Assembly (NCBI GenBank): GCA_018817915.1
Contig: JAHISX010000023.1
Span: 1 to 64,000, forward strand
Source: Bacillota bacterium
GTDB lineage: Bacteria > Bacillota_I > Bacilli_A > Acholeplasmatales > Acholeplasmataceae
Direction of reading: 5' to 3'
DNA: 64,000 nt
Shown: positions 5,448 to 29,904 of the stretch, one piece after another
How positions within the stretch are numbered: the stretch's first letter is position 1
Layout of the letters: every line of letters begins with the position of its first letter
Notes under the pieces: model-generated
The model's database searches: none
What the model was told of the DNA's origin: nothing
What the model saw: only the letters and a program-made list of their open reading frames with translations
Made by a program: the position numbers and the translations under genes

Positions 5448-5510
5448 TTTCTTCCAAAGATATTGATTATTTAATAAATATATGTTATTTTATATTTGGC
5501 TGTTATCGTA

Positions 5511-5666
5511 ATGAGTATCTTACCTATTATGTTTCCAAATGCACCGCTAACGGTTACCATTTTATTCAATATATTCTTGAAATCTAAAGGAGTGAGCATA
5601 AAAATGGAACTTAAGGTATGGTGGAAGACTTTTGTGATGGTGCCCAAAGGTGCATTAAATTCATAG
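5511..5666 (+). CDS. possible 51 aa small protein on antisense strand (MSILPIMFPNAPLTVTILFNIFLKSKGVSIKMELKVWWKTFVMVPKGALNS)
   Basis: Open frame read by hand in the portal-terL intergenic region; internal ATG at 5602 preceded by aaaggag; may be chance. Confidence 0.2.
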   Translation: MSILPIMFPNAPLTVTILFNIFLKSKGVSIKMELKVWWKTFVMVPKGALNS

Positions 5667-5730
5667 GGTATTTGAAAGTTACATAACGGGCACAATCGTC
5701 TTGAAGGTTCAACTCCTTCCGCCATCACCA
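5636..5730 (+). ncRNA. tRNA-like RNA (T-arm + acceptor + encoded CCA; non-canonical middle)
   Basis: GATGGTG (5636-5642) pairs with CGCCATC (5720-5726, one G-U); T-stem GAAGG/CCTTC with loop TTCAACT (5703-5719); A + CCA at 5727-5730; followed by rho-independent terminator. Confidence 0.5.
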
Positions 5731-5741
5731 TTTTATAAATT

Positions 5742-5765
5742 AAAGGTTCTTTGAACCTTTTTTTT
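5742..5765 (+). terminator. rho-independent terminator
   Basis: AAAGGTTC-TTT-GAACCTTT perfect 8-bp hairpin followed by TTTTT. Confidence 0.8.
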
Positions 5766-7407
5766 ATAGCATATTCTCGTAATCAAGCTTATACCTATTT
5801 AAAACTGCATAAGCAATTATCAAAGCTACAGTACCATCTATCCGTTTATATTTGGAGTTTAACTTTGATGGTTGAATGTTTCCATTTAAGTCTACTTTGG
5901 CTTGAGTATTAGCTAAACACCATTTTAAGATTGGATTATTGTTATAATTTACAAGGCTGTTTTTGAGATCTGCTTCAAGCTGCTTCATTGGTTCAGATAG
6001 AGAATAAATTCCCTGTCTTACTTTCTCCATATTGAAACCCAGGTCTTCCATTTCTTTTATCCAGTACTGTGAGTTCCAAGGATCAAATCCAACCCATAAA
6101 GGTCTGATACCGTAAGTTTGTATCATCTTCATGAACCATTGAGTAACAAGACTAAAATCATTTTGGTTTCCCTCTGTCAAAGTTACCAGTCCCCTTTTTA
6201 CCCAAATATCATAAGGAACATTATCTTCAGTAATTCTTTTTTGTAAAACTTCACTTGGCATAAAGAAGTGAGCTAGAATATACTTCTTGTTACTTTCTTT
6301 TTTCTGAATAACTAGAATAGCTGCAGTTAGATCCGTTGTTGAAGATAAATCTACACCACCTATTGCATAACTATCTCTTAGATCATCTATATTATATGTT
6401 TCATCGTTATTTAAATCATCAAAATTAAGCCAAGAACCAGAGTCCGCTTGTTTGATATTAAAGTCTTTGCAAAGCATTGTTACTCTTGTTGATAAGTCAT
6501 GCTTTGATTTATTCATTACATCTTCTAGATAGCTATTTAACTTTACTACTCCTATACTGGGATTAGATTTCTGCCATGTCTTTTTATCCTCGTATATCTC
6601 GTTCACTGAGTCTTGCGTATAAAGCCAGGGAAGAACTCTTTCATCTTGTATCTCACCTTTAAGCATCTTACGACTATAATCAAGCTTACTATCTAAAAAA
6701 CCACCGACTGTTGTCCCTTCGGTGGTTATGATAAATATTAGAGGTTCTTTCTTTGTAGATTGTGATTGTTTGATTGCATCATATACTTTTGAATCAGTCA
6801 TCTCATGAACTTCATCGATACAACCTACTTCGATGTTATATCCATCTTTGTTTCTAGATTGAGCAGATAATTTCTTGATCTTATTTTTAGTTTTTGGAGA
6901 ATAGATGTAAAAGATGTTTTTCTTGCTTCTTGTTTCCTTTGATAATGATGGAGATTGCTCTCGCATATTATTAATTTCTTCGAAAAGAATATTTGCTTGT
7001 TCTGTTGTATTCGAAGCACAGATTATGTCTACTCCACCTCTTGATAGAAAGAACTCTGCAATATCTAATCCAGCTACGAAAGTTGTCTTTCCATTCTTTC
7101 TTGCAATCAACAATATAACTTCATTAAATCTTCTAAGGTCTGTATCAACAATTTTGAATCCATAAGCCGTTTGAATGATCGCTTTTTCCCATAACTCAAG
7201 TATAAATGGCATCCCGTTAAATGGTGATTTAGTATGCTTACAAAAAGTCTCTATAAAATTAATTCTTAAATTACCTGGTTTCTCATCAAATATGTATCTA
7301 GGATTTTCAAGATCAAGAATCAATGTATCAAGTTGTTTCTTGAGTTCTTCTCCTACAAGAATATTTCCTTTTTCTATTTCATGATAATACTCTACTAGAT
7401 AGTTCAT
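5764..7407 (-). CDS. terL: phage terminase large subunit
   Basis: 547 aa; ARKNGKTTFVAGL ATPase motif, IICASNTTEQANILFEEI, IDEVHEM Walker B. Confidence 0.95.
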   Translation of the reverse strand: MNYLVEYYHEIEKGNILVGEELKKQLDTLILDLENPRYIFDEKPGNLRINFIETFCKHTKSPFNGMPFILELWEKAIIQTAYGFKIVDTDLRRFNEVILLIARKNGKTTFVAGLDIAEFFLSRGGVDIICASNTTEQANILFEEINNMREQSPSLSKETRSKKNIFYIYSPKTKNKIKKLSAQSRNKDGYNIEVGCIDEVHEMTDSKVYDAIKQSQSTKKEPLIFIITTEGTTVGGFLDSKLDYSRKMLKGEIQDERVLPWLYTQDSVNEIYEDKKTWQKSNPSIGVVKLNSYLEDVMNKSKHDLSTRVTMLCKDFNIKQADSGSWLNFDDLNNDETYNIDDLRDSYAIGGVDLSSTTDLTAAILVIQKKESNKKYILAHFFMPSEVLQKRITEDNVPYDIWVKRGLVTLTEGNQNDFSLVTQWFMKMIQTYGIRPLWVGFDPWNSQYWIKEMEDLGFNMEKVRQGIYSLSEPMKQLEADLKNSLVNYNNNPILKWCLANTQAKVDLNGNIQPSKLNSKYKRIDGTVALIIAYAVLNRYKLDYENML

Positions 7408-7727
7408 TCACTTGCTCTCTTAAGAAATTCATCAAATGCGTCTTCTCCATCGTCTACTTGTGTCCCTAGGATAGTATTTAGAGTTTTAATCACTGTTCCA
7501 TAAGAATTCACAAGTTTTGTATAATACTTGGCAGCTTCAGTTTGTCGTTGAGAACCTTTAGTTGATATTTGAACTGCACCATATTTTCTTATCTGTCCTT
7601 GAAGTTTGTCAAGTTCAACTTTCATGAATGCAGCTTGATGAATCATATTGTCAACCAGTTCTTTCTTTGATTCATCAGCCATAGAAAAAAGCGACTTGAG
7701 TCGCTTATATTCCTGTATAACCATCAT
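7404..7727 (-). CDS. terS: phage terminase small subunit (P27 family)
   Basis: 107 aa, adjacent to terL; AKYYTKLVNSYGTVIKTLNTILG typical of P27 family. Confidence 0.8.
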   Translation of the reverse strand: MMVIQEYKRLKSLFSMADESKKELVDNMIHQAAFMKVELDKLQGQIRKYGAVQISTKGSQRQTEAAKYYTKLVNSYGTVIKTLNTILGTQVDDGEDAFDEFLKRASE

Positions 7728-7730
7728 TTT

Positions 7731-9422
7731 CTATTTCCTAAGGTTAAAGGATGCAATTGAGCTATATATACGTTCTTGATGTTCAATATAATCAGGTGAA
7801 TTAAGTAATTGGTATTTCTGGTTATCAAGAACTATCAAATTTAAATCAGGGTATTCATCCAAATCTATGTACTGATCTGCATTAACAGAGGACACAAGCA
7901 TTTGATAATCATTTATATCAGAATTTAAAATGAATTCAAGTATATCTTGACTATTTTCATTATCTTGTTCTCCTTCTCTAGGTGAATCAATCACAAGGGG
8001 AAACTTAAACGACTGAACATTCATATGAGTTTTTATTTCTAAAAAAGCAAAGAAATATGCTAATGTACTTCTTACATACTGACTTCCACCAATTCGTAGT
8101 TTTTGAAAAGGTTTAATATTATCAGACTTAAAGTTTGTAACATTAAGATTTCTAAGAAATCTAGTGTATTCTGCAACAAACAATTCATGAGCTTCTCTCT
8201 TTAAAGTTTGGTGTTTTTCGATATTTTCGCTAACATTCTTTATTTCGTTTTCTAAAGATTGAATTTCAATATTTAATTTTGTCATTCTCTCAACAAGTTC
8301 AGAAATAATATTATCATAAGCTTTACGATTAATATAACTTTGATAAGCACTTTCCTTAACCTTAACTTGTTCTTCCAAAGCATTAATCTCACTTAACTGA
8401 TCAGCAAGGGAAGATTTAACTATAGCTAACTTATCACTGGATTCTTTTATTTCAAAATCAATTGATTTTGCTCTATTTCTCAAAAAACTTAAATTGTATA
8501 ATTCTTCTATTTCCTCTTCAAATGAAATTTCAAAGATATTTTCGCAATTAGGACATTTAATTTCTTTGCTTGTTTTTATGTCCTTCCCAGATGCTAATTG
8601 AGTTATAATTCTATCAATATCTTTTCTTTCGATCTCTAAATCAAATCTAGACGAATCCAAATATAAGAATTGTTCTTTTAACTCAGCAATTATGCTGAGA
8701 TTATGGTTTATTTTGTTTTTCATTTGATTTAAAACAATTTCCATTTCGTTTTCATTAATAAATGTATTATCAGATTTTATTGTTTCAGAAATTGTCTTAT
8801 ATATTTCTTCAGAATTAGCTTGTTCATCTTTCTTATTAGTCAGCACTTTTTGTTTTTCCTGAATCAACTGTCTATAAGAAATATAATCCTTATTCAATAT
8901 GTTAAGGTGGTAATAAAACAAATCGTTTCTACTAAGTTTTTCAAATTGTCCAAGATTTTCAAATGGTTCTACTTCTTTTTTCCAACTTTTATCTTGGTCC
9001 AAATAATATGGTAAAAAAGACATAGCAGGTGGAGCTAAGACGATACTCGCAGTTCTGCTTTTTAAATAAACACTAAATCCAAATTCTTCTTCATAAAATC
9101 TAGACAAACCCTCAATATTACCACGACTAAATTTCTTAATGAGTTTTTCTTCTTTGAATATAGTATATTCATCTTGGTAACGACAAATTCGATATTTTTG
9201 ATTATTCACATTAAATTCAATATCAAACATTTTTGAATGAACTTCAAATTCATCATCAAATAAACTATTTGCACCCAGGGTATGGTATAAAGATTTCATA
9301 ATCGTTGATTTACCTTTAGAATTTGAATCACTCGTAATCAAGTTTCTGTTATTTCCAAAAGACACATATTTTGCTTCTTTACGAATATAATCTACAATAA
9401 GCAAGTTATTAAAAATCAGCAC
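7731..9422 (-). CDS. SMC-like ATPase, Lamassu LmuB-like
   Basis: 563 aa; Walker A-like SNSKGKST, long coiled coils around a CPNC zinc-hook-like motif, C-terminal GGSQYVRSTLAYFFAFLE signature and FPLVIDSP Walker B. Confidence 0.7.
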   Translation of the reverse strand: MLIFNNLLIVDYIRKEAKYVSFGNNRNLITSDSNSKGKSTIMKSLYHTLGANSLFDDEFEVHSKMFDIEFNVNNQKYRICRYQDEYTIFKEEKLIKKFSRGNIEGLSRFYEEEFGFSVYLKSRTASIVLAPPAMSFLPYYLDQDKSWKKEVEPFENLGQFEKLSRNDLFYYHLNILNKDYISYRQLIQEKQKVLTNKKDEQANSEEIYKTISETIKSDNTFINENEMEIVLNQMKNKINHNLSIIAELKEQFLYLDSSRFDLEIERKDIDRIITQLASGKDIKTSKEIKCPNCENIFEISFEEEIEELYNLSFLRNRAKSIDFEIKESSDKLAIVKSSLADQLSEINALEEQVKVKESAYQSYINRKAYDNIISELVERMTKLNIEIQSLENEIKNVSENIEKHQTLKREAHELFVAEYTRFLRNLNVTNFKSDNIKPFQKLRIGGSQYVRSTLAYFFAFLEIKTHMNVQSFKFPLVIDSPREGEQDNENSQDILEFILNSDINDYQMLVSSVNADQYIDLDEYPDLNLIVLDNQKYQLLNSPDYIEHQERIYSSIASFNLRK

Positions 9423-9435
9423 TTTGACACCTCCC

Positions 9436-10509
9436 CTAATTCATCTTGTATAAATATATTGTGACAATAAATTCACCATATTCTTTGTAAAACTCTGATG
9501 TTTTCAATATATCATCATCGTTCAAATAGTTAATTATGCTCTGAACAATATCTTTTTCATCTATATCTTGATTGATATCTACGTATTCAGCTATTTTTTC
9601 GTTTGCATATGATACCAGCTTCGATCCTGATTTTATCTTTTCAATTTGGAATTTCTTATATTTTTTGAGACAATTATAATTATTACCATAAGTGAAGCAT
9701 GAACCTAAGACATTACATTTAAAATCATTTAGATTTTGAAATTCGGGTAATTCTACTAACCATGTTTTTTCTATTATTAGAGATATATCCTTATCAGTAA
9801 TACTTTTCGATTGCTTCAAATGCTCCACTTCAATATTTACTGGATTAAATACATTCTTTTGTCTTTTTTGGAGTTCTAAAATCAGTTTTGAATAAATAGT
9901 ATCAAGTGATGAAAGTGTTAATTTATTATTAATAGATTGACAATATAGAGAAAGTTTACCTCTAATTTGATCATCATATCCTTTTAAGCTTAAATCAGAA
10001 GACAGAACATAATAATTATCTAGTTTAATGTCCTCTTTTTCAAGTTGATATTCAATTGATAACTGCTCCACAACTTGATCATGAAATTTAATATTGTCGG
10101 GAAGATTTAATAAATCAGAAAGTTTTTCAACATTCACTTGATCATAAATTTTATCGTTTAGCTTGATTCCATTATTTGTAACTAAAATACCTTTTGAATC
10201 AAATTCGCTGAAGTTAGAAATATTATAATGCATTTTAGAAATCCAATTATTTGTAATTATAACCCTCATACTTATTGGTCCATTATTTTTCGTTTTAACC
10301 TGATAAAATGTAATCATTTTATTATCATCATTGCCACTTACTACAACAACATCGTCTAGATAGTCTAAAAATGTCAAAAAACTTGTTTCTTCAGACATCA
10401 TTTTTATTATTAGTCCCGCAGCAAAAAAAACCTGGTATTGGTATCTATTATAGACATCACTGCCAGAGAACTCTCTTGGGATTACTACTCGAAGCTTCTC
10501 ATCTATCAC
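9436..10509 (-). CDS. DUF4297 (Cap4-type dsDNA nuclease) protein, Lamassu LmuA-like
   Basis: 357 aa; YQYQVFFAAGLIIKMM...FLDYLDDVVVV...ITFYQVKTKNN pattern of DUF4297 nuclease N-domain; 13 bp from LmuB-like gene. Confidence 0.7.
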   Translation of the reverse strand: MIDEKLRVVIPREFSGSDVYNRYQYQVFFAAGLIIKMMSEETSFLTFLDYLDDVVVVSGNDDNKMITFYQVKTKNNGPISMRVIITNNWISKMHYNISNFSEFDSKGILVTNNGIKLNDKIYDQVNVEKLSDLLNLPDNIKFHDQVVEQLSIEYQLEKEDIKLDNYYVLSSDLSLKGYDDQIRGKLSLYCQSINNKLTLSSLDTIYSKLILELQKRQKNVFNPVNIEVEHLKQSKSITDKDISLIIEKTWLVELPEFQNLNDFKCNVLGSCFTYGNNYNCLKKYKKFQIEKIKSGSKLVSYANEKIAEYVDINQDIDEKDIVQSIINYLNDDDILKTSEFYKEYGEFIVTIYLYKMN

Positions 10510-10671
10510 TATATCTACCCCCGAAGGAAACTGATAAATTGATTATAGCATAATAATAAAGTTTTTTGAATGCAAATCATATTATTGATTTTCAAAAATA
10601 ATGCCTTGTGTTTTTTAATTGTCCCCTAGCGCGGTACCCATACTATTTTTTTTTGATATGAATGGGGGGGA

Positions 10672-11367
10672 TTAGAGCAAGTTTTTTAACACGATTATAT
10701 TTAATTCAAGATTAATAACACAATTGTTAATGTTTGTTACAGTTTCATCTCTATATGAATTAATTTGATTCAGTGCAAATCCTGATGTTTTTGATAATAG
10801 ATTGACATACTGATTTTTGATTGTCAATGTATCATTAATCACTAATTTTAATGTCTCTACGAAATTTAAATCTTTAATTATCAATGAAGAGTCTGACAAT
10901 TGTTGAATTAAGTTTTCGATATGATTTACGAAAGATTTTTGGTTTACAATTATATCCCTTTGAGTTGTAAGAGGAACAAAAAAGCCTGTCTTTCTTACTT
11001 CATCAAGACTTAATATAGAGGCAAGTTTTTTACCATCAGTTATTATTTTATTTGTTATTTTTAATGAACTGTTTTTTTCTTGTTCTTCAGAAGATTTTGA
11101 AGCATCACCTTCATGCTTATGTAAATCGCCTTCAACAAAAATCTGTTCTGTCGCATTGAAATTATTAACACTTATATTTATCGTGATTGCTAAAGATAAT
11201 GACAATGCAACGGATACACCACCTAAAATGTCTTTAATGATCTCTAGTGTATTGATATCATTAATTTTAGTTAACACTATAAGAAATATATATATTATAC
11301 TTATAAATATTGTTAATGCGATAATTATACCAATTCTCTTTTTTATCCAATCTGAAATATGCTTCAT
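10672..11367 (-). CDS. membrane protein, two N-terminal TM segments plus helical soluble domain
   Basis: 231 aa ORF with hydrophobic segments at residues ~13-32 and ~45-65. Confidence 0.6.
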   Translation of the reverse strand: MKHISDWIKKRIGIIIALTIFISIIYIFLIVLTKINDINTLEIIKDILGGVSVALSLSLAITINISVNNFNATEQIFVEGDLHKHEGDASKSSEEQEKNSSLKITNKIITDGKKLASILSLDEVRKTGFFVPLTTQRDIIVNQKSFVNHIENLIQQLSDSSLIIKDLNFVETLKLVINDTLTIKNQYVNLLSKTSGFALNQINSYRDETVTNINNCVINLELNIIVLKNLL

Positions 11368-11420
11368 GGTTTCATCCCCTTTTGTATAATTATATCAAAT
11401 ATAATCAACAAAAACGAGGC

Positions 11421-11705
11421 TTATTTACGAATCATATCACCATTTGAATCGAATTCTATCGTTGGACTAAATCGCTTATGTTCTTTATTGTGACAATCTT
11501 TACATAAAAGTTCTAAGTTTTCTTGATTGATGCTCACAGAACTGTCTTTTATATTATCAATTGTTAATCGTTTCTTATGATGAACTTCTTCACCTAATTT
11601 ACCACAACGTTCACATAGTCCGTTGACTTCGCGTATCTTGATTTCTCTTGCTACTGCCCATACACTAGACTTGTAAAAATTGTGTATCACCTTAGGTTTT
11701 CGCAT
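11421..11705 (-). CDS. phage HNH endonuclease
   Basis: 94 aa; CERCGKLGEEVHHKKRL...LLCKDCHNKEH HNH motif. Confidence 0.92.
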   Translation of the reverse strand: MRKPKVIHNFYKSSVWAVAREIKIREVNGLCERCGKLGEEVHHKKRLTIDNIKDSSVSINQENLELLCKDCHNKEHKRFSPTIEFDSNGDMIRK

Positions 11706-12822
11706 AAAGTTCTCTCAATTGATTAATCTTATCATCTACATGTTCCCAGCGAACAGGAAGTTCTTCTCTACCAAAGTGTCCATAAGCAGCTAAGTCTTTG
11801 AACTTGACCTTATCCAATTCAAGTTCTTTTCTTATATTCTCAGGTTTAAAGTTAAAGATATAATTAACCAATGATGTGATTTCATCATCATCAGTAACAC
11901 CAGTATCAAACGTATTAACAAGTACGCTTACTGGCTTTGCTACACCTATTACATATCCAAGACTAACCTCGCAATGTGTGGCCAAACCTGCCCCTACAAC
12001 GGCTTTTGCAACGTATCTGGCATAATAAGCCGCACTGCGATCAACCTTGCTTACGTCTTTACCTGAGAAAGCTCCTCCGCCATGTCTTGCATAACCACCA
12101 TACGTATCAACAATGATTTTTCTACCCGTTAATCCAGAGTCTGCATATGGTCCGCCTATTACAAACTCTCCAGTAGGATTTATAAGTATTTCTGCTTCAA
12201 CTAATGTATCAAAGTCAAAGACCTTTGTTAATACTTCATTGATTATGATATCTTCAATAAACTCTCTATCAAGACCTGGTTTTGTTTGTGCTGAGACAAC
12301 AATGGTTTGTACTTTGATTGGTTTCCCATTTTCATAACCTACAGATACCTGGCACTTTCCATCAGGTCCAAAGATGTGAGAGTATTTTTCTTTTCGAATC
12401 TTATCTACTTCTTTTGATATTTGATGTGCAAGCATAATCGGAAGTGGCATGAATTCTTGTGTTTCATTACAAGCATATCCAAACATAATCCCTTGATCGC
12501 CTGCACCTTGTTCTTTACTTTCGCTTGAATCAACACCAAGTGCGATATTAGGTGACTGCTTACTTATCTTTTCTATTACAACAAACTTCTCATCATAACC
12601 AATTTCCTTGATGGTTTGTTTTGCTATTTGAGAATAATTGACAATTGCAGTAGTTGTTACTTCACCGAATACAAAAATCAAATCATCTTTGATTGCTGTC
12701 TCAACTGCTACTCTTGCATTCTTATCTTGTTCTAGTATTGCATCTAAAATTGCATCACTGATTTGATCACATACTTTATCAGGATGTCCACTAAATACAG
12801 ATTCACTTGTTACTATTTGCAT
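11692..12822 (-). CDS. metK: S-adenosylmethionine synthetase, prophage-encoded
   Basis: 376 aa; [45 protein letters not shown] motifs. Confidence 0.95.
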   Translation of the reverse strand: MQIVTSESVFSGHPDKVCDQISDAILDAILEQDKNARVAVETAIKDDLIFVFGEVTTTAIVNYSQIAKQTIKEIGYDEKFVVIEKISKQSPNIALGVDSSESKEQGAGDQGIMFGYACNETQEFMPLPIMLAHQISKEVDKIRKEKYSHIFGPDGKCQVSVGYENGKPIKVQTIVVSAQTKPGLDREFIEDIIINEVLTKVFDFDTLVEAEILINPTGEFVIGGPYADSGLTGRKIIVDTYGGYARHGGGAFSGKDVSKVDRSAAYYARYVAKAVVGAGLATHCEVSLGYVIGVAKPVSVLVNTFDTGVTDDDEITSLVNYIFNFKPENIRKELELDKVKFKDLAAYGHFGREELPVRWEHVDDKINQLRELYAKT

Positions 12823-13611: not shown

Positions 13612-14811
13612 CTATAGTAACAAATTCTCAAACAATTCATAATGGCTCAATGGAGACCTTTTTCCGTTTCTGATTAAATAGCAATCTTCTATCGATTCAC
13701 TATGTCTGATATATCTTTTTACGATGACATCAACAAATCTTTCATCAAGCTCCATCAAGCAACTTTTACGATCAAGTTGATCTGCTGCGATTAATGTTGA
13801 ACCAGAACCACCAAATAGATCTAGAATGGTTTCATGTCTTCTGCTAGAATTTGAGATTGCTTTTCCAACTAGCTCTAAAGGTTTCATCGTTGGATGTTCT
13901 TCACTCTTCCTAGGTTTGTTATAGTTCCAAATTGTGTCTTGAGTTCTATCATCAACAAAGAAATGAGCTGCGCCTTCTCTCCATCCATAAAGAATAGGTT
14001 CATGTCTCCAATGATAGTCTTGTCTTCCTAGTACTAATGCATTCTTTTCCCATATTATTTGTTGTGCGTACTTAAAACCCGCTTCAAGATACGATAATAA
14101 AAAATTCTTGAGTTCTGTTGCCGCATGACAAACATAGATTGCTCCACCTGGTTTCGTATGCTCAAACATATTCTTGAAAGCATCATATAAAAAAAGATAG
14201 AAGCTATTGTCTCCCATCTTATCGTTTTTGATTTTACCTGCAGTTCCTTCATAATCCACATTATAAGGTGGATCAGTAAAGATCATATCTATTGTTTGGG
14301 AATCTACTAATTTATTTACATCTTCGCTTTTTGTAGAATCTCCACACATAACTCGATGATTACCAAGGACATAAACATCTCCTGGCTCACTAAATGGCAC
14401 TTCTGGAATCTCGTCTTCAATATCAAAATCATCATCAGAAGCATTATCCGGAAGCAATTCTTCTAGTTCTTCAAATCCGAATTGAAGCATATCCATATTA
14501 ATAAAGGAAAGCTCTTCTTCCAGTTTTGAGAAATCCCAAGTCGCAAGTTCTGCTGTTTTATTATCCGCTAAGCGAAATGCTTTGATTTGTGCCTCATTTA
14601 AGTCATCTGCAATAATACATGGGACCTCTTTCAAATCAAGCGACACAGCGGCTTTTAAGCGTGTGTGTCCGGCAATAATGACATTGTCTTTCGTTATTAC
14701 AATAGGAACCTTAAATCCAAACTCTTTTATTGAGTTGGCCACCGCATGAACTGCTTCATCATTATTCCTTGGATTATTCTCATAAACAATCAACTCTTTA
14801 ATCTTCTTCAT
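13612..14811 (-). CDS. phage DNA modification methylase (ParB-N domain + N4/N6 methyltransferase)
   Basis: NPRNNDEAV..AGHTRLKAA ParB-like domain; DMIFTDPPYNVDYEG and DLFGGSGSTLIAA methylase motifs. Confidence 0.9.
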   Translation of the reverse strand: MKKIKELIVYENNPRNNDEAVHAVANSIKEFGFKVPIVITKDNVIIAGHTRLKAAVSLDLKEVPCIIADDLNEAQIKAFRLADNKTAELATWDFSKLEEELSFINMDMLQFGFEELEELLPDNASDDDFDIEDEIPEVPFSEPGDVYVLGNHRVMCGDSTKSEDVNKLVDSQTIDMIFTDPPYNVDYEGTAGKIKNDKMGDNSFYLFLYDAFKNMFEHTKPGGAIYVCHAATELKNFLLSYLEAGFKYAQQIIWEKNALVLGRQDYHWRHEPILYGWREGAAHFFVDDRTQDTIWNYNKPRKSEEHPTMKPLELVGKAISNSSRRHETILDLFGGSGSTLIAADQLDRKSCLMELDERFVDVIVKRYIRHSESIEDCYLIRNGKRSPLSHYELFENLLL

Positions 14812-15283
14812 CATCACTAGCATTTGTCCAATCATCCTCTTTTGCATTCAGTCTTTTTTCCATCAAATCTAATTCACGTTTCTTTTCGTTATATTCTCGG
14901 CCAAAGTTAGTAATTAGAAGATATCTTATTGCTTTGTAGTCTGGTCTCTCTTTTTTGGTATGCTTTTCAATTCTCTCTTTTCTTTTACCATTTCCATCTT
15001 TTTCAATATTGGTTTTGGTATCTTCAGAGTATGCACCTATAGCAAGCTGATACATCGAATCTAACAAATTCTTCTTCAGACTTTCTTTTCCTTTATAAAT
15101 CGCATCCTTGATTTTTGGATGTTTTCTTTTTAATGCTATAAAAGTTTTCTCGCTTATTCCTAAAGATTCAGAAAGATCACGTTGATTTATTCTTTGGGAA
15201 GCTAGTTTTTCTATTTCTTTTAATTTATTCTTTAGAACTCCATCTTTTTCCCATTGCTGGTAGGAATCTAGTAGTTTTGGCAT
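14798..15283 (-). CDS. phage HTH protein
   Basis: 161 aa; NQRDLSESLGISEKTFIALKRKHP HTH segment. Confidence 0.6.
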   Translation of the reverse strand: MPKLLDSYQQWEKDGVLKNKLKEIEKLASQRINQRDLSESLGISEKTFIALKRKHPKIKDAIYKGKESLKKNLLDSMYQLAIGAYSEDTKTNIEKDGNGKRKERIEKHTKKERPDYKAIRYLLITNFGREYNEKKRELDLMEKRLNAKEDDWTNASDDEED

Positions 15284-15647: not shown

Positions 15648-16715
15648 TTATATTTTTACTATTGTGACCTTGCCTTGTTCAATTAATTTATAAAATGAGT
15701 TAGGGTAAATTCTATTTATCATTTTTTGTACTAAAGATGTTACTTCAGATTTCCTATTTCCGCCTTCATAATCCGAATAACAAAAGAATATGGTTTTTTT
15801 ATTATTAAAGAAAGACAATATATTATTGTAATAGTCATTATCAAACTCATTTAATGAGGTTCCGTAAAATACTATTGTATTATCTTCTTCTTCAATTAAT
15901 GTAGAAATAGGTTGAATGTCGTTTTGAATTCTTCTATTTGATTTTGTGAATCCTTCATAATCTGCTTTAGTGTTCGATTCTGCACTAATTCCAAAAATAG
16001 GATGATTTAAAATTGACCCATGAAGGTTTTGGACCTTTATGGCATGACCTTCAATATTTTCAATTAGAGGTGTGTAATTAAAAGTAAATACATATATAGG
16101 TTGTTCCCTAATTGTACTGTTAACTAACTTCTCAAACAACACAGTTTGATTTGTATAGTATGAGTCTTTAACCTCATCAATTTCTTTACTGATATACTGT
16201 GAAAATCTATCTTCAAATTTAGATAACTCAAGGAGTAACTTTTCGATAAATTCACTATTTTGAACAACTTTTGACTTAAAAAATTCTCTTGGAAATCCAA
16301 TCCTTGACAGATAACTCCCATCATCAAAGTATCTTTTATATAACATGTAGGCAAAATACCAATCTGAATCCGGATTACCCCAAGAATCATTATCTAGAAA
16401 ATCATTGATCTTATCAAGAATCATATCCCAAAAACCAGATTGAATAGATTGGTCAATTTCAGCTTCAATATCACACCATAAATCTTGATTCATGTTGGGT
16501 GATTGCATTATGAAATATAAATCCCAAATAGTAAACTCTTGTTGATCTATAGCATTCCTGACATAAGTATCAAATGAAAAATCGTAAGGTTTTGATAATG
16601 TTACGTTCTTATACCATGGATATGTTTTCTTACACCAACTAAAAAAATGTGAATATTTTGTTTTTAGACCGCACTGAAGATCAAATCCATTTCCCAATAT
16701 AAATATAGTTCCCAT
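15648..16715 (-). CDS. abiH: AbiH-family abortive infection protein
   Basis: MGTIFILGNGFDLQCGLKTKYSHFF N-terminus characteristic of AbiH; YVFTFNYTPLIE..LHGSI. Confidence 0.85.
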   Translation of the reverse strand: MGTIFILGNGFDLQCGLKTKYSHFFSWCKKTYPWYKNVTLSKPYDFSFDTYVRNAIDQQEFTIWDLYFIMQSPNMNQDLWCDIEAEIDQSIQSGFWDMILDKINDFLDNDSWGNPDSDWYFAYMLYKRYFDDGSYLSRIGFPREFFKSKVVQNSEFIEKLLLELSKFEDRFSQYISKEIDEVKDSYYTNQTVLFEKLVNSTIREQPIYVFTFNYTPLIENIEGHAIKVQNLHGSILNHPIFGISAESNTKADYEGFTKSNRRIQNDIQPISTLIEEEDNTIVFYGTSLNEFDNDYYNNILSFFNNKKTIFFCYSDYEGGNRKSEVTSLVQKMINRIYPNSFYKLIEQGKVTIVKI

Positions 16716-16754
16716 ATAACCACCCAATCACAAATGCCAGTTCATTATTTTTTT

Positions 16755-19144: not shown

Positions 19145-19942
19145 CTACAAGCCTTTCTCATTATATGCAGCAATAAACCTTTTTTTAGATGTCTCAAGAT
19201 ACAAGAGTTTATTATCGATACCAATATATGATCTATTATTTAAAATAGCAGCTACACCAGTAGTTCCGCTTCCATTAAATGGATCAAGAATTAAATCTCC
19301 AGGTTCTGTTGAGGCAAGAATAATCCTTTCGATAATTTCCACTGGCTTTTGTGTTGGATGCTTTCCATATTTTTTTTCACTAGGTTTTGTTAAACTAGTG
19401 TTCCATACATCTTTCATTTGTTTATCGTTATTTATCGTTTTCATATCTTTATAGTTAAAGTGATGTTTAGCTTTTTTTAAATCTTTCTTAGCCCACAAAA
19501 TAGTCTCAGTAGAATGTGTAAATGCTCTGCAGCTTATATTTGGCGGAGGATTAGATTTTTGCCAAGTGATATTATTTATAATCTTGAACCCTTCTTCTTC
19601 TAATGCCATTCCAATAGAGTAAATGTTATGCATTGTACCTGATATCCAAATACTACCATTTGATTTCAAAACTCTTTTGCATTTTCTTATCCAATTCTTA
19701 TTAAACTTATGTTTCTCTTTCAATGAGATTTTCTCATCCCAATCAGCTTTTTTAACACTTACCATTTTTCCACTGGAAACCGTTATTCCATCTCCTGAAA
19801 GAAAATAGGGTGGATCTGCAAAAATCATATCTACTGATTCAGTTTTCAAATTCTTTAAGACTTCAAAAGAATCTCCATGAATTAAATCAATACAATTGTC
19901 TTTATAATAAAATTCCTGTTTTCCTTTATATACATTCATCAA
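19145..19942 (-). CDS. dpnA: DpnA-type site-specific adenine methyltransferase
   Basis: DMIFADPPYFLSGDG, HPTQKPVEIIERII, ILDPFNGSGTTGVAA; beside DpnM and DpnII REase. Confidence 0.88.
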   Translation of the reverse strand: MMNVYKGKQEFYYKDNCIDLIHGDSFEVLKNLKTESVDMIFADPPYFLSGDGITVSSGKMVSVKKADWDEKISLKEKHKFNKNWIRKCKRVLKSNGSIWISGTMHNIYSIGMALEEEGFKIINNITWQKSNPPPNISCRAFTHSTETILWAKKDLKKAKHHFNYKDMKTINNDKQMKDVWNTSLTKPSEKKYGKHPTQKPVEIIERIILASTEPGDLILDPFNGSGTTGVAAILNNRSYIGIDNKLLYLETSKKRFIAAYNEKGL

Positions 19943-19951
19943 AACACCAAC

Positions 19952-20818
19952 TTACTTAATAATCTGTTTTAAAACTCCATTTTCTAAATCTGTCAAAGTA
20001 TATAGATGTTCAAGGACATCATATGTTTCTCGTAAGTTATTCTTTGCTGTAATCCACCCAACACCATCTGTAATCCATATAAAAGTCAACTCTGTATTAT
20101 TTTTTATATCCAAACCTAAAGACTTAAAGCTCCTTGCAGTTTCGTTAAGTTTAGAACCACCACCTGAATAAAAATTAGTTTCAATAACAAAAACTTGGTT
20201 TTCAGTTTTGATAACAAAATCAAACCTTTTTTCCGCAACTTTTAAGCTTTCTTCTGATTTTAAATAATCATCTAAATCAATATTGTATTTTTCTTTAATT
20301 TCTTTTTTATTTGTTTCTTTCGAGTATTCAATGTGTTTTGTTTTTTGTATAAAGTTTTCAACAATGTTCTCCATTGCAGTACCAGTTCTATTTTTTCTAG
20401 CATTACTGTCTAATCCAACTTCTACACCTGTAACATAGTCAAATAGATTTCTGATTTTAGACAATTCTAATAGATTAAACAAACCGCTTTCTCTCATAAA
20501 CTTGAGATACATTGCATCGCTTAGTGTTCTATTATTAAACTCAAACATAATTGGAACTTCATCAATTATCGGAACTTTATTCCCATTTTTTCTTATTGCT
20601 AACAAAAGAGGAATAACCTTCAATGTTTTAGGATACTCATTTATAATATCTAGAAAATCTTTTTCAATATTTTCAGATCCTACAAGTGAATTTAGAATGT
20701 TCAGTTCTACTTTTATTTTATCTACATGTTTATACACTTTAGGAAAGTCAGTATAGTACTTGTAGTCTGCTACTGTATCTTTCAAATTAGCTAATAAATC
20801 ATCAAATGACTGTTTCAT
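19952..20818 (-). CDS. dpnB: type II restriction endonuclease, DpnII/MboI family (GATC)
   Basis: DTVADYKYYTDFPKVYKHVDKIKVELNILNSLVGSENIEKDFL strongly resembles R.DpnII N-terminus. Confidence 0.9.
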   Translation of the reverse strand: MKQSFDDLLANLKDTVADYKYYTDFPKVYKHVDKIKVELNILNSLVGSENIEKDFLDIINEYPKTLKVIPLLLAIRKNGNKVPIIDEVPIMFEFNNRTLSDAMYLKFMRESGLFNLLELSKIRNLFDYVTGVEVGLDSNARKNRTGTAMENIVENFIQKTKHIEYSKETNKKEIKEKYNIDLDDYLKSEESLKVAEKRFDFVIKTENQVFVIETNFYSGGGSKLNETARSFKSLGLDIKNNTELTFIWITDGVGWITAKNNLRETYDVLEHLYTLTDLENGVLKQIIK

Positions 20819-21666
20819 TATTTATCCCCCAAATCATAATTATAAATTATTGTTTCAATTCCATTTCGTTTACTTGCATCAGAATTTATCATCCGTTTAA
20901 CTGAAACAACATCTATATTAAAATCCGAATATAATTCATTAATTAAAGGTGTATTATGGTTTGTAATCATAACATAACATCCTTTAATATCGAGTTCGTG
21001 AGCTACTTCAGAAAGTCGTTTCTGACCCTCTACTCCAAATCCATCTTTAGTATAGCTATCAAAAGTGTCTTTATTTATCAAGTCATATGGCGGATCAAAG
21101 AAGATAAAATCTCCTTTTTTAGCATTTGCTACAGTTTCTTCAAAATCACAATTTAATATTTTGACAGCTCCTTTTTTCAAGTATTCACTAAGTGAAGTAA
21201 TGTTATCTTCATTATATGTTGAAACTATATTCTTTTTACCAAATGGAACATTATAATATCCTTTTTTATTTACTCTATACATTCCATTAAAACATGCTTT
21301 ATTCAGATATATAAATCTAGCTGTTTTAGATAAAATGCTTGTGTCTTTCCAGTTATCTTTTCTATCAAGTTCCCTAATTGAATAGAAATATTCACTTGGA
21401 GATTTTGCATGTTCTTTTTCATGATTATCTAGTTCCTTCATCAATTCAAAAGGAAAATCTCTTATCGTAATATATGCATCAATTAGCTCTTTTGAATAAT
21501 CGCTAATCGTGGTAATTGAATTTTGAAGGTCAAGAAAAAGCGCACCTCCACCAACAAATGGTTCAAAATACGAGTTAAAAGAGCTTGGCATTCTTTCTTT
21601 AATATCCTCAAGCAATTGTCTTTTACCGCCTACCCACTTAATAAATGGTTGTATTTTATATTTCAT
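20818..21666 (-). CDS. dpnM: Dam-family adenine methyltransferase (DpnM)
   Basis: QPFIKWVGGKRQLL, YFEPFVGGGALFLDL, DFIFFDPPY motifs. Confidence 0.93.
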   Translation of the reverse strand: MKYKIQPFIKWVGGKRQLLEDIKERMPSSFNSYFEPFVGGGALFLDLQNSITTISDYSKELIDAYITIRDFPFELMKELDNHEKEHAKSPSEYFYSIRELDRKDNWKDTSILSKTARFIYLNKACFNGMYRVNKKGYYNVPFGKKNIVSTYNEDNITSLSEYLKKGAVKILNCDFEETVANAKKGDFIFFDPPYDLINKDTFDSYTKDGFGVEGQKRLSEVAHELDIKGCYVMITNHNTPLINELYSDFNIDVVSVKRMINSDASKRNGIETIIYNYDLGDK

Positions 21667-24126: not shown

Positions 24127-25044
24127 TTATTTGCGAGTTGTTTTCCCGAACAACGTATCACTAATCTTCCCTTCATAATTCTCTTTTCGTCTATTCATCT
24201 TGTGGATATAGATCTGTGTTGTTGCTGGGTCTTTGTGTCTAAGCAACTGTTGTGTGCTTTCAATGCCTGCGCCTTCCAGTAATGACAACGTTGCTGTCGT
24301 GTGTCTTAAGCTATGTGCAGAATATTTTGGACTATCGATGCCTATTTGTCGTAAGTATTCTTTAACTACAGCCCGAATTGATCTTGTTTGCATTCTCTCT
24401 CCGTAATTCGTATGACCATGATTAATGAATAGTGGTTTGAATTCATCGGAACGTTTGATTAAATATTCTTCAATTATTGCATATACTTGTGGTGATAATT
24501 TTACATAGGTATCCTTATCATCATGTCCTTTTCCCATTACGAATAATACCTGGGAATCTTCTATAAAATCGATATCCTCTGTATCAGATCTTTCAACTTC
24601 AATTGTTCTCATGCCAGTCGTAAGTAGTAAACTGATAAGAGCATAATTTCTAAGACCTATTACATCTTTTCTTGCGTAAATCTCAGCTCTATGTAAGAGC
24701 TTCTTTGAATCTACAACCGAGAGTGCTTCACGTTTAAAGTTCGATTCAATCTTCATTCCTTTTATACCCTCTGCGATATTGGGCCCATATCCTTCAATAT
24801 AAAACCATCGGTAGAAATTACGAATGACAACTATGTGTTTCTGTACTGAAGCTGCTTTTAGTCGGTTTTTAATGCGATCACGGTATTTCATGACATCATG
24901 CCTAGTTGGTAAGTTAGGAAGATTATCAATATATGAAACATACTCAAATAGAATCCTTTGGTAGCTTTCTTTCGTAGCTGGTTTAATGTCAATATAATTA
25001 ATATACTGAATGATTCTTTCTTTTAGTGATTCTTGAGTATTCAT
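24127..25044 (-). CDS. tyrosine recombinase/integrase
   Basis: 305 aa; LLLTTGMRTIEVE, SAHSLRHTTATLSLLEGAGIESTQQLLRHKDPATTQIYIH catalytic box. Confidence 0.92.
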   Translation of the reverse strand: MNTQESLKERIIQYINYIDIKPATKESYQRILFEYVSYIDNLPNLPTRHDVMKYRDRIKNRLKAASVQKHIVVIRNFYRWFYIEGYGPNIAEGIKGMKIESNFKREALSVVDSKKLLHRAEIYARKDVIGLRNYALISLLLTTGMRTIEVERSDTEDIDFIEDSQVLFVMGKGHDDKDTYVKLSPQVYAIIEEYLIKRSDEFKPLFINHGHTNYGERMQTRSIRAVVKEYLRQIGIDSPKYSAHSLRHTTATLSLLEGAGIESTQQLLRHKDPATTQIYIHKMNRRKENYEGKISDTLFGKTTRK

Positions 25045-26493: not shown

Positions 26494-26533
26494 ACTTGCT
26501 ATTTATTGCTTTTTGAGTGATGTATATAGTAAC
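26494..26533 (+). promoter_or_regulatory. promoter-like 40-bp element, copy 2
   Basis: acttgctatttattgctttttgagtgatgtatatagtaac, 35/40 identical to minus strand of 13562-13601; just upstream of recombinase RBS. Confidence 0.55.
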
Positions 26534-26549
26534 GAAAAGGAGGTACATT

Positions 26550-28250
26550 ATGTTAGAAAAAAGAGTATTTGTCATGGAACCTGAGCAAGTGATTCATGAA
26601 GATTCTAATGGCATGCCAGTTCTAAAGTCAAAAAAGAGAGTTTGTGCATACGCCAGGGTTTCTACAGATTCAGATGATCAGCTAAATAGTTATCAGGCAC
26701 AGATAGATGAATTCACAAAAAAGATACAAGATAATGACGAATGGGAATTTATCAGGATGTATGCAGACGAAGGAATATCTGGAACTAGTATTAAGAAGCG
26801 TCCTGAATTCTTAAATATGATTGAGGATGCACGTGAAGGTAAAATCGATTTAATTCTTACAAAGTCATTATCCAGGTTTGCAAGAAATACTGTAGATACA
26901 TTAACAATTGTAAGAGAGTTAAGAAGTATTGGTGTTGAAGTATTCTTTGAAAAAGAAAACATTTATTCATCAGATACGAAAGTGGATTTTATGCTTACAA
27001 TCTTTTCTTCAATCGCCCAGGAAGAAGCAAGAAACATCAGCGAGAATGTGAAATGGGGATTTCAAAAGAGATTCAAAGAAGGAAAGGTTCACATTAACAC
27101 TAAACGATTCCTAGGATACGATAAAGATGATGATGGTAAAATAATCATCAATGAGGTTCAAGCTAAAACAGTGAGAATGATTTACGATATGTATATTGCA
27201 GGTTCATCGTTAAAAGAAATTGTTGAGTTTTTGACTGAAAATGAAATCCCAAATGGACGTGATGAGATTTTTTGGACTTCTGCTACTGTTAGCACAATCC
27301 TCACCAATGAAAAGTATTGTGGGGATGCTATTCTTCAAAAACGAGTAACCTTGGATTACCTCACACACAAATCAGTAAAAAACAATGGCCACGCTCCAAA
27401 GTACTACATCATGAACAATCATGAACCAATCATACCAAGAAAGAAATTCGAATTAGTTCAGAGTTTAAAAACCAAAAGAGGTAAAAAGAAAAGCACTTCA
27501 AATTATGGTAACAAATATGCGCTAAGCGGAATGGTTTATTGTGGAGAATGCGGTAAAGTGATGAACCGCCACTACTACAACTATAGAAAGCCAACTCAAA
27601 GGATTGTTTTATCCTGTAAAAACAGATACAAAGATCCTCACGTTTGCAGCAATAAGCCTGTTGATAACGATTTACTAGAAAGTGCGGTAATTGAATCAAT
27701 CCAAAAATTAAATCTACACAACCCTCAAATAGTTAAGGATACACTGAATCTTGTAAAAACAAGTCTAGATTCATCCTATATGGAAATGGAAATCAAGGAT
27801 ACACAAAAACAAATTAGCAATCTAGAAAGTGAAATTAAAGAAATCATTAACATCAATGTTGGTTCCATGGTAGAAAATACCGACTTTTATAAGGCAATTT
27901 ACAATGAAAAGAAAGCTTCCTTGATTCAACTGAAGGCAGATTTACAGAATAAAAAAAGCTTACTTATTGATCAGCATCTTCACGATGAACGGATTCAACA
28001 AATAAGCGAATTTCTAAAAGGTTATACATCTCTTAATAAAAATATCCTACTTGGGGTATACAAAGCGATCATTGCAGTTAGCCAAAATGAAGTAATCTTC
28101 GTAATGAGTGATTCCAAGCTTTCACAAAAAGAAATACAAGACAACATTGAAGTTTATAAATCTTTAAAAAGAATTGATAGTAACACAATCGTTAATTTCG
28201 ATTCAAAGCGATCAATCATTTATCATGTCGTCAAGCATGGAGGAAAGTAA
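26550..28250 (+). CDS. large serine recombinase 1
   Basis: VCAYARVSTDSDDQLNSYQAQI resolvase domain, recombinase domain, zinc ribbon CGECGKVMNRH, coiled coil. Confidence 0.93.
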   Translation: MLEKRVFVMEPEQVIHEDSNGMPVLKSKKRVCAYARVSTDSDDQLNSYQAQIDEFTKKIQDNDEWEFIRMYADEGISGTSIKKRPEFLNMIEDAREGKIDLILTKSLSRFARNTVDTLTIVRELRSIGVEVFFEKENIYSSDTKVDFMLTIFSSIAQEEARNISENVKWGFQKRFKEGKVHINTKRFLGYDKDDDGKIIINEVQAKTVRMIYDMYIAGSSLKEIVEFLTENEIPNGRDEIFWTSATVSTILTNEKYCGDAILQKRVTLDYLTHKSVKNNGHAPKYYIMNNHEPIIPRKKFELVQSLKTKRGKKKSTSNYGNKYALSGMVYCGECGKVMNRHYYNYRKPTQRIVLSCKNRYKDPHVCSNKPVDNDLLESAVIESIQKLNLHNPQIVKDTLNLVKTSLDSSYMEMEIKDTQKQISNLESEIKEIININVGSMVENTDFYKAIYNEKKASLIQLKADLQNKKSLLIDQHLHDERIQQISEFLKGYTSLNKNILLGVYKAIIAVSQNEVIFVMSDSKLSQKEIQDNIEVYKSLKRIDSNTIVNFDSKRSIIYHVVKHGGK

Positions 28251-28251
28251 G

Positions 28252-29904
28252 ATGAATGTTGTTGAACTGTTAAACGTAGATTTATACGAAAAGTCTTTAA
28301 AAAGAAAAAACGTTTGTGCATACGCAAGAGTATCAACTTCAAAAGATCTTCAAGAAACTTCATTTGACTTGCAGGTAGAAACTTATACACAAATGATACA
28401 AAGCAATCCTGAATGGAATTTTTCAGGAGTGTTTGCTGATGAAGGAAAAAGTGGAACTAGCCTGGATTACAGAGGTCAATTCAACTTAATGGTCGAAATT
28501 GCTAAATCAGGTAATATCGATATGATCATTACAAAGTCGGTTTCCAGGTTTGCAAGAAACACCATTGATTGCTTATCCATTATTCAAGAACTTAAAAAAC
28601 ATGGAACTGAAGTATGGTTTGAAAAAGAAAACTTATCTTCATTTGATCCAAAGATAGAGTTTGTCATTGCAGTAATGGCAGGCATGGCTGAAGAGGAATC
28701 TAGAAGCATAAGTGAAAATGTTAAATGGGGAGTACAGAAAAGATTTAGAGATGGAATTGTTCCAATGGTTACTTCTCATCTTCTTGGATATGACAGAGAT
28801 GAAAACAATGATGTGGTTATTAACAAAGAGGAAGCAAAAGTAATTAAGTTAATTTTCAAAATGTATTCAGAAGGGATATCACAAAGACTTATAGCTGAAC
28901 ATTTAAACACGCTCAATCTAAAAACTAAGTTTGGAAACAAACCATACTATGAAGGTGCGATTCGAGGAATCATAAATAACGAGCGATATACAGGAAACGC
29001 AATTCTTCAAAAATCAAAAAGAAAAAAAATAGGAGATCGTTCAGGCGAGAAAAACCAACTAACTCTGCCAAAATATTATGTAGAGAACTCTCACCCAGAA
29101 ATTATTTCTCAAAAACTTTTTGATGAGGTTCACGCTCTGAAGAATCAACGTATCCTAAAGTACAATCTCACTCTAGATAAAAAGCAGCTAAAGAAAATTG
29201 GAACGAATCGGTCGGAGTATGCTGAATTTATAGAATGTGCAATCTGTGGAAAGAATTATCATTACAGAATAAATAACATCAATACCATCTGGGAGAATAA
29301 AATCCTCAAATGTTCTTCAAACAAAATAAATAAAAAATGCGATAATGACGCACTATTTGTATCAACATTTGATAGAGTACTGCTTTCACACATAAACTGG
29401 ATTATTAAGAATAAAGACGACTTCTTAAATCGCCTGCGTGAGGCTTTAATGATTCATCCCGCTATCATTGAACTGAACTCGAGTTTGCAGCAGGCACAGG
29501 AAAAATTAGACGACTATGACACCAAGTTGAGAACACTCATGGTCTCAAATGATGAATTAGATAAACATGTACGAAGTGAAGTGATTTCACTCAAGAATGA
29601 AACTCAAATAGAACTAATAAAGCTAAAGAATAAGTTATTAACAACTCATAACATTCCATCAATCATTAAGAAAATGAAAATGATATTAAGCAAGTACAAA
29701 ACTCAAATTGATAAAATTTCGGATTTTCAATTTCGTGAGATTTTTACAAAAGCAAGAATATACAACCGTGACGATATAGAGTTGGTTATAGATCCTTTCA
29801 ATAGTTCAAATAAAAAATGCGTATACATATATCCAGCAATTTCTACTGAATACACGATACGCAAAAAAAACCACTTAGCAACAAGTTCAATTAAAGTCTT
29901 ATGA
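28252..29904 (+). CDS. large serine recombinase 2
   Basis: VCAYARVSTSKDLQETSFDLQVETY resolvase domain; zinc-ribbon-like CAICGKNYHY; RBS ggagg before 28252. Confidence 0.92.
   Translation: MNVVELLNVDLYEKSLKRKNVCAYARVSTSKDLQETSFDLQVETYTQMIQSNPEWNFSGVFADEGKSGTSLDYRGQFNLMVEIAKSGNIDMIITKSVSRFARNTIDCLSIIQELKKHGTEVWFEKENLSSFDPKIEFVIAVMAGMAEEESRSISENVKWGVQKRFRDGIVPMVTSHLLGYDRDENNDVVINKEEAKVIKLIFKMYSEGISQRLIAEHLNTLNLKTKFGNKPYYEGAIRGIINNERYTGNAILQKSKRKKIGDRSGEKNQLTLPKYYVENSHPEIISQKLFDEVHALKNQRILKYNLTLDKKQLKKIGTNRSEYAEFIECAICGKNYHYRINNINTIWENKILKCSSNKINKKCDNDALFVSTFDRVLLSHINWIIKNKDDFLNRLREALMIHPAIIELNSSLQQAQEKLDDYDTKLRTLMVSNDELDKHVRSEVISLKNETQIELIKLKNKLLTTHNIPSIIKKMKMILSKYKTQIDKISDFQFREIFTKARIYNRDDIELVIDPFNSSNKKCVYIYPAISTEYTIRKKNHLATSSIKVL

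Follow-up and report, generated by a model that had tools for sequence, protein, structure and literature searches.

Results

Gene content of the locus

The window, by which we mean the whole 64,000-nucleotide stretch of DNA analysed, starts at one end of a 99-kb contig. In it lies the beginning of the late genes of a temperate phage whose relatives, where their hosts are named, belong to Acholeplasmataceae and other Bacilli/Mollicutes. Relatives with 74-98% identity in TerL share a gene order of orf161, ParB/methyltransferase, orf125, orf115, MetK, HNH, a slot, terS and terL, and the two genes considered here, lmuA and lmuB, lie in that slot (Table 1). The first-pass annotation had described a Cap4-type gene followed 13 bp on by an SMC-like ATPase with a CPNC motif, and both open reading frames were found as described, on the minus strand, with lmuA directly before lmuB across the 13-bp gap and lmuB separated from terS by 3 bp. 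Its placement of the pair between HNH and terS held on the right, where terS and terL directly follow, but on the left lmuA does not adjoin HNH, as a membrane-protein gene and a GC-rich element intervene. This left-hand 231-aa cargo protein had no family match, and in the nearest relatives the left-hand cargo is a different one.

We call the 107-aa gene TerS because of its position and of the corresponding gene in Lactobacillus phage iA2, which occupies the same place before terL. Since orf161 (14798-15283, minus strand) matches phrog_309 'terminase small subunit' (1e-17), there are, as judged by sequence, two small-terminase candidates, orf161 and the phrog_1066 gene before terL.

Elsewhere in the prophage, an AbiH abortive-infection gene (15648-16727, minus strand; Pfam AbiH, E 4.4e-25) has 90% identity in L063, the nearest related prophage, and, being kept there, lies outside the changing slot. 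A phage MetK (S-adenosylmethionine synthetase; 11692-12822, minus strand), conserved throughout the lineage, sits beside HNH; together with a fusion of ParB to an N6/N4 methyltransferase (13612-14847) and additional methyltransferases at 19145-21666, it looks like a module that supplies phage DNA modification. Two genes for large serine recombinases overlap and stand next to each other (26517-28250 and 28174-29904, plus strand), and a tyrosine-type integrase is found at 24127-25044 (minus strand). The terL-portal interval (5471-5731 in the window; L155-L192) constitutes a second variable position, with ORF size and strand varying among relatives. The same late-gene module is borne by a 93-kb plasmid of MO-XQ (L069, CP017949.1), which suggests a phage-plasmid within the lineage.

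Table 1. Features of the HNH-terL region, with positions in the window
Feature	Position	Strand	Remarks
terL, HK97-type terminase large subunit	5764-7407	-	phrog_9
TerS-position gene, right-hand conserved flank	7404-7727	-	107 aa; phrog_1066 (no function)
Putative intrinsic-terminator hairpin	7689-7706	-	AAGCGACTCAAGTCGCTT, then a T run; terS codons 7-13; right-hand slot border
LmuB, Rad50/SMC-like ABC ATPase with CxxC zinc-hook motif	7731-9422	-	563 aa; GTG start
LmuA, Cap4/DUF4297-type nuclease effector	9436-10509	-	357 aa; GTG start
Candidate lmuA promoter	10542-10570	-	TTCAAA-17-TATAAT, TG before -10; ends 33 bp before start codon
GC-rich element inside slot (putative cos)	10586-10670; core 10611-10638	-	CCCCCCC-N24-GGGTACCGC...GGGGAC-AATTAAAAAA...TTTTTGAAAATC
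Left-hand cargo gene	10672-11367	-	231 aa; N-terminal membrane segments
Putative slot-resident promoter, -10 TGATATAAT	11389-11397	-	within the HNH-side conserved flank, ahead of the left-hand cargo
HNH endonuclease, left-hand conserved flank	11421-11705	-	

LmuA and LmuB form a two-gene Lamassu pair

Similarity to Cap4/DUF4297 and SMC proteins, on which the proposed pairing of LmuA with LmuB had been staked, was readily detected and lay far beyond chance: the PADLOC LmuB profile PDLC00254 matched LmuB over its full length (residues 2-554, E 2.3e-116), while LmuA matched both the PADLOC LmuA profile PDLC00238 (E 3.4e-23) and Pfam Cap4_nuclease (E 6.4e-15). The catalytic residues D53, Q70 and K72 of LmuA (the latter two as Q70-x-K72) are invariant in a 15-sequence alignment (A5), as are G37-K38-S39 and D142-Q143 of LmuB in its own alignment. 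The CPNC motif occupies residues 290-293 of LmuB, with C290 and C293 invariant solely within the 7-sequence alignment A2; CxxC is absent from some other phage LmuBs. Walker B of LmuB reads VIDSP, placing Ser where the catalytic Glu is usual. A Glu to Gln change at the Walker B site of LmuB has been reviewed, with slow or no ATP hydrolysis suggested (PMC10586767).

AlphaFold models of LmuA and LmuB had mean pLDDT values of 82 and 86, respectively. The best fold match of the LmuB model was 9ux7_A of an LmuAB-DNA complex (2.0e-23), with weaker matches to LmuACB complexes (~1e-12); 9ux7_A was also matched by sequence (PDB E 5.2e-12), making 9ux7 the nearest solved structure of LmuB by sequence and by fold. 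HMMER found no match of LmuA among PDB sequences but the fold search did, to the LmuA chains 9nxx, 9hr5 and 9ux7_C (7.5e-06 for 9ux7) and then to Cap4; the fold match to DUF4297-HerA chains was weaker than that to LmuA chains, and a HerA partner ATPase is absent, the partner of LmuA being LmuB. LmuC, which the annotation had also reported missing, is indeed absent: the 13-bp gap holds no gene, and the sole ORF upstream before HNH, that of the membrane protein, has no LmuC match.

Sequence and predicted structure place the pair in two-gene (type I) Lamassu as a new member, and this placement is well supported because the profile matches, the conserved residues and the closest folds, those of solved Lamassu proteins, all point to it. 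It resembles type I (LmuAB; PDB 9ux7) in having a Cap4-type LmuA directly upstream of an LmuB of ~560 aa, the CxxC hook, the fold and no LmuC, and differs in that its LmuB is ~21% identical to 9ux7_A and that it is prophage-borne beside terS. With type II/DdmABC (LmuACB; 9uxh, 9hqx) it has the LmuB and LmuA folds in common, and the effector of V. cholerae DdmABC is likewise Cap4; in contrast, the window pair is without LmuC, its LmuB is shorter (563 vs. 630-653 aa) and the fold match is weaker (9e-13).

The suggestion that a divergent Walker A (SNSKGKST) sets this LmuB apart as a distinct subtype was rejected. The first Gly of the motif (DSNSKGKS in LmuB) is missing in all seven aligned LmuBs and in the solved LmuB of 9ux7, whereas other phage LmuBs retain it; as this position varies across the family, Walker A is no mark of subtype. 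In 25 further IMG/VR loci with LmuB, the upstream effector ORF, where whole, immediately adjoins LmuB, the 14 pairs measured being spaced by -26 to +47 bp, so that phage-borne two-gene Lamassu is widespread. LmuC is missing from some Lamassu systems according to a review (PMC10586767); its absence is ordinary, and the Lamassu pair itself is also ordinary and of low surprise. In a mycoplasma Lamassu pair (L145, G277:C1), the LmuA frame is broken into two that overlap, and LmuB is open (code 4).

Cargo turnover between HNH and terS

The pair had been viewed as host-protective cargo interrupting packaging genes that normally adjoin one another. Cargo within a prophage packaging module it is, but in this phage lineage the HNH-terS interval is almost always filled with exchangeable cargo, as in 45 of 46 complete slots; the empty one, L046 (G015), retains only the element and a terminator. 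A lone insertion was rejected by comparison with relatives. These 46 slots, 164-5353 bp long, comprise 40 gene configurations and 69 cargo families, and the interval is a cargo slot with high turnover between fixed flanks. The comparison of related prophages proposed in the first-pass annotation showed that the nearest relatives keep the packaging genes and carry other genes in place of the pair. L063 (TerL 98%, HNH 94%) has the same flanks and different cargo, a 370-aa protein and a trypsin-like protein of 231 aa; its DNA matches the window at 92% up to 11378 and at ~90% from 7736, with only a patch of ~87 bp (10589-10674) matching in between.

In a set of 38 contigs and 30 genomes, some of the latter partial, Lamassu pairs occupy only three slots (window, L048 and L058), the L058 locus being cut by a contig end. 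The LmuBs of L048 and L058 are 22-26% identical to that of the window, and the pairs are mutually divergent and occur at two positions relative to the element. Other known or candidate defence genes with family matches in the slot are SIR2 PDC-S25, an spbK-like TIR protein, KAP NTPase PDC-S49 and DUF2971 PDC-S31, to which the slot of a distant relative, L101, which lies outside the 46 complete slots, adds Ditto (DitA 3.5e-161, DitB 2.4e-70); a trypsin-like protein was matched as well. About half of 30 scanned cargo proteins had no defence match; since many families are without known function, the term "defence slot" is supported for part of the cargo only. We found no description of an HNH-terS hotspot or of Acholeplasma prophage cargo in the open-access literature, and the slot is apparently undescribed.

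A conserved GC-rich element within the slot

Between left and right cargo lies an element of ~85 bp consisting of a C run, ~24 variable bases, GGGTACCGC, a G run, AATTAAAAAA and TTTTTGAAAATC, with runs of C7 and G6 flanking its conserved core. It gave one match in the window vs. zero expected and is present in 38 viral contigs; counted without regard to kinship, it occurs exactly once, in one orientation, in each of the 46 complete slots, the empty one included. We surmise that it is probably a cos site, at which the phage DNA would be cleaved, because it lies between HNH and terS, where the linear genome of phage iA2 (TerL 33% identical) opens: the iA2 record starts 57 bp before the TerS-position gene, ends with HNH and has C6/G7 runs in its two ends, although record ends could reflect convention. 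Alternatively, the element might serve recombination or regulation, for example in the attachment of cargo modules or in late promotion or antitermination. Its location between exchangeable modules would fit this reading, as would the lack of cos-like ends, the ends of the 38 viral contigs showing no pile-up at the element. However, we consider it unlikely given a single copy in one orientation that is kept between HNH and terS even in the empty slot, and given C and G runs both around the core and in the iA2 ends; moreover, HNH beside terS is the arrangement that Kala et al. in 2014 reportedly described for cos phages.

Candidate promoters

A general promoter scan gave no excess (28 promoter-like sites vs. 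30 expected), and being at chance level, it led us to use only a perfect extended -10 at a fixed position, together with control genes. By this measure, TGNTATAAT occurs within 70 nt after the HNH stop in 39 of 50 loci, kinship being ignored, vs. 1 of 190 control tails (MetK, orf125, ParB-MTase, TerL and orf161). A site similar to the extended -10 before lmuA in the window is found before lmuA in L058. Both the HNH-flank site and the lmuA site are candidate promoters, as judged by motif and position.

A terminator-like hairpin in the first codons of terS

A hairpin followed by six T falls within the first codons of 54 of 58 terS genes (kinship ignored), compared with a yield of 0.4-6% per gene in synonymous codon shuffling. 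To form it, terS must use two rare codons, CGA, which makes up 8% of Arg codons, and TCG, with 5% of Ser codons. Compensatory pair changes were seen at two positions (C-G to T-A and C-G to A-T) among 36 distinct sequences, many stems carry the C(UUCG)G loop, which stabilises RNA, and wobble pairs are tolerated. L046, in which terS is without the hairpin, has a separate terminator hairpin just before terS. From these features, we infer that the hairpin may act as a terminator; if so, late transcription of terS/terL needs antitermination or leaky termination, and no antiterminator was identified. Packaging-start sites lie inside terS in P22 and SPP1, and the near-perfect palindrome could instead serve the small terminase as a pac/cosB-like DNA site. 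That reading appears rather improbable, somewhat more so than a non-cos role for the element, since the shape with its six-T run is that of an intrinsic terminator, RNA-type loops and wobble pairs recur, and the substitute hairpin of L046 is itself terminator-like. Among distant relatives (L087, L088, L090, L091, L093-L096 and L108), extra genes of 374-492 aa and 54-76 aa lie between the TerS-position gene and terL; in these same relatives, the terS hairpin is mostly absent.

Discussion

Taken together, we favor, with a probability of roughly 0.78, the reading that a temperate phage of a wall-less host (Acholeplasmataceae) bears a type I Lamassu as exchangeable cargo beside a probable cos, in a slot with a resident promoter and terminator. 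By analogy with solved Lamassu complexes, LmuB would form a Rad50-like dimer, joined by the CxxC hook, that binds abnormal DNA or DNA ends from an incoming phage or plasmid and then releases LmuA, whose Cap4 nuclease domain would assemble into an active form and cut DNA, with the cell dying or stalling ahead of the spread of the rival phage; the pair would thereby act in defence. The promoter fixed behind HNH (with, in the window, another before lmuA) could express any resident cargo, and the terminator fixed in the first terS codons could stop cargo transcripts before the packaging genes. Phages may exchange cargo by recombination, with either the flanks they share or free cos ends as the sites.

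We also weighed whether the pair is the debris of chance domestication, i.e., a decayed and inactive Lamassu copy. This is very improbable, as evidenced by: 1) both frames are open and full length, with catalytic and P-loop residues kept; 2) both folds are well predicted; 3) an identical copy of the pair is found in an independent viral contig (L002); and 4) an extended -10 precedes lmuA. Rad50-like proteins act on DNA ends, and the pair abuts terS within the packaging module, but adoption for the phage's own cycle (DNA-end protection, replication or packaging) is the most implausible of the alternatives, given that the nearest relatives keep all packaging genes with other genes in its place, that the slots of the genomes and contigs compared hold only three pairs, which are divergent and differently placed, and that the effector residues of LmuA are intact.

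The exchangeable-cargo reading finds a precedent in the enterobacterial defence hotspots of P2 and P4, which adjoin cos and for which cohesive ends have been proposed to promote exchange (Rousset et al., PMC9122126). As in those hotspots (PMC9122126), variable defence genes in the present lineage are found by what is probably the packaging site, between fixed core genes. In contrast to them, the window lineage is unrelated (HK97-type TerL, HNH, Mollicutes hosts), the element lies within the slot with cargo on both sides, and the putative promoter is fixed, as is the putative terminator inside terS. The slot looks like an independent cos-adjacent case in another lineage of phages, to which a putative promoter and terminator of its own are added. 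Phage morons, as reportedly described by Hendrix and co-workers, are cargo genes with a promoter and terminator in the late-gene region, a feature found here as well; the difference is that the putative promoter and terminator of the window lineage are part of the conserved flanks and persist through changes of cargo.

Extending this, we speculate, at even odds, that the Acholeplasmataceae phage lineage keeps a dedicated defence "cassette bay" around cos, with a left-flank promoter, a terminator concealed in the terS coding sequence and a packaging site in the center. Any genes swapped in would then be transcribed in the lysogen and kept apart from packaging, and the cos ends would drive their exchange. 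The exchange hypothesis can be tested directly by means of the fixed promoter, element and terminator, which also constitute three sequence handles for mining the slot, where the many cargo families (of 69) without known function leave scope for new defence genes. If true, the recurrence of this placement among Mollicutes relatives, whose phages have a terminase of another lineage, would make cos-side cargo a general rule.
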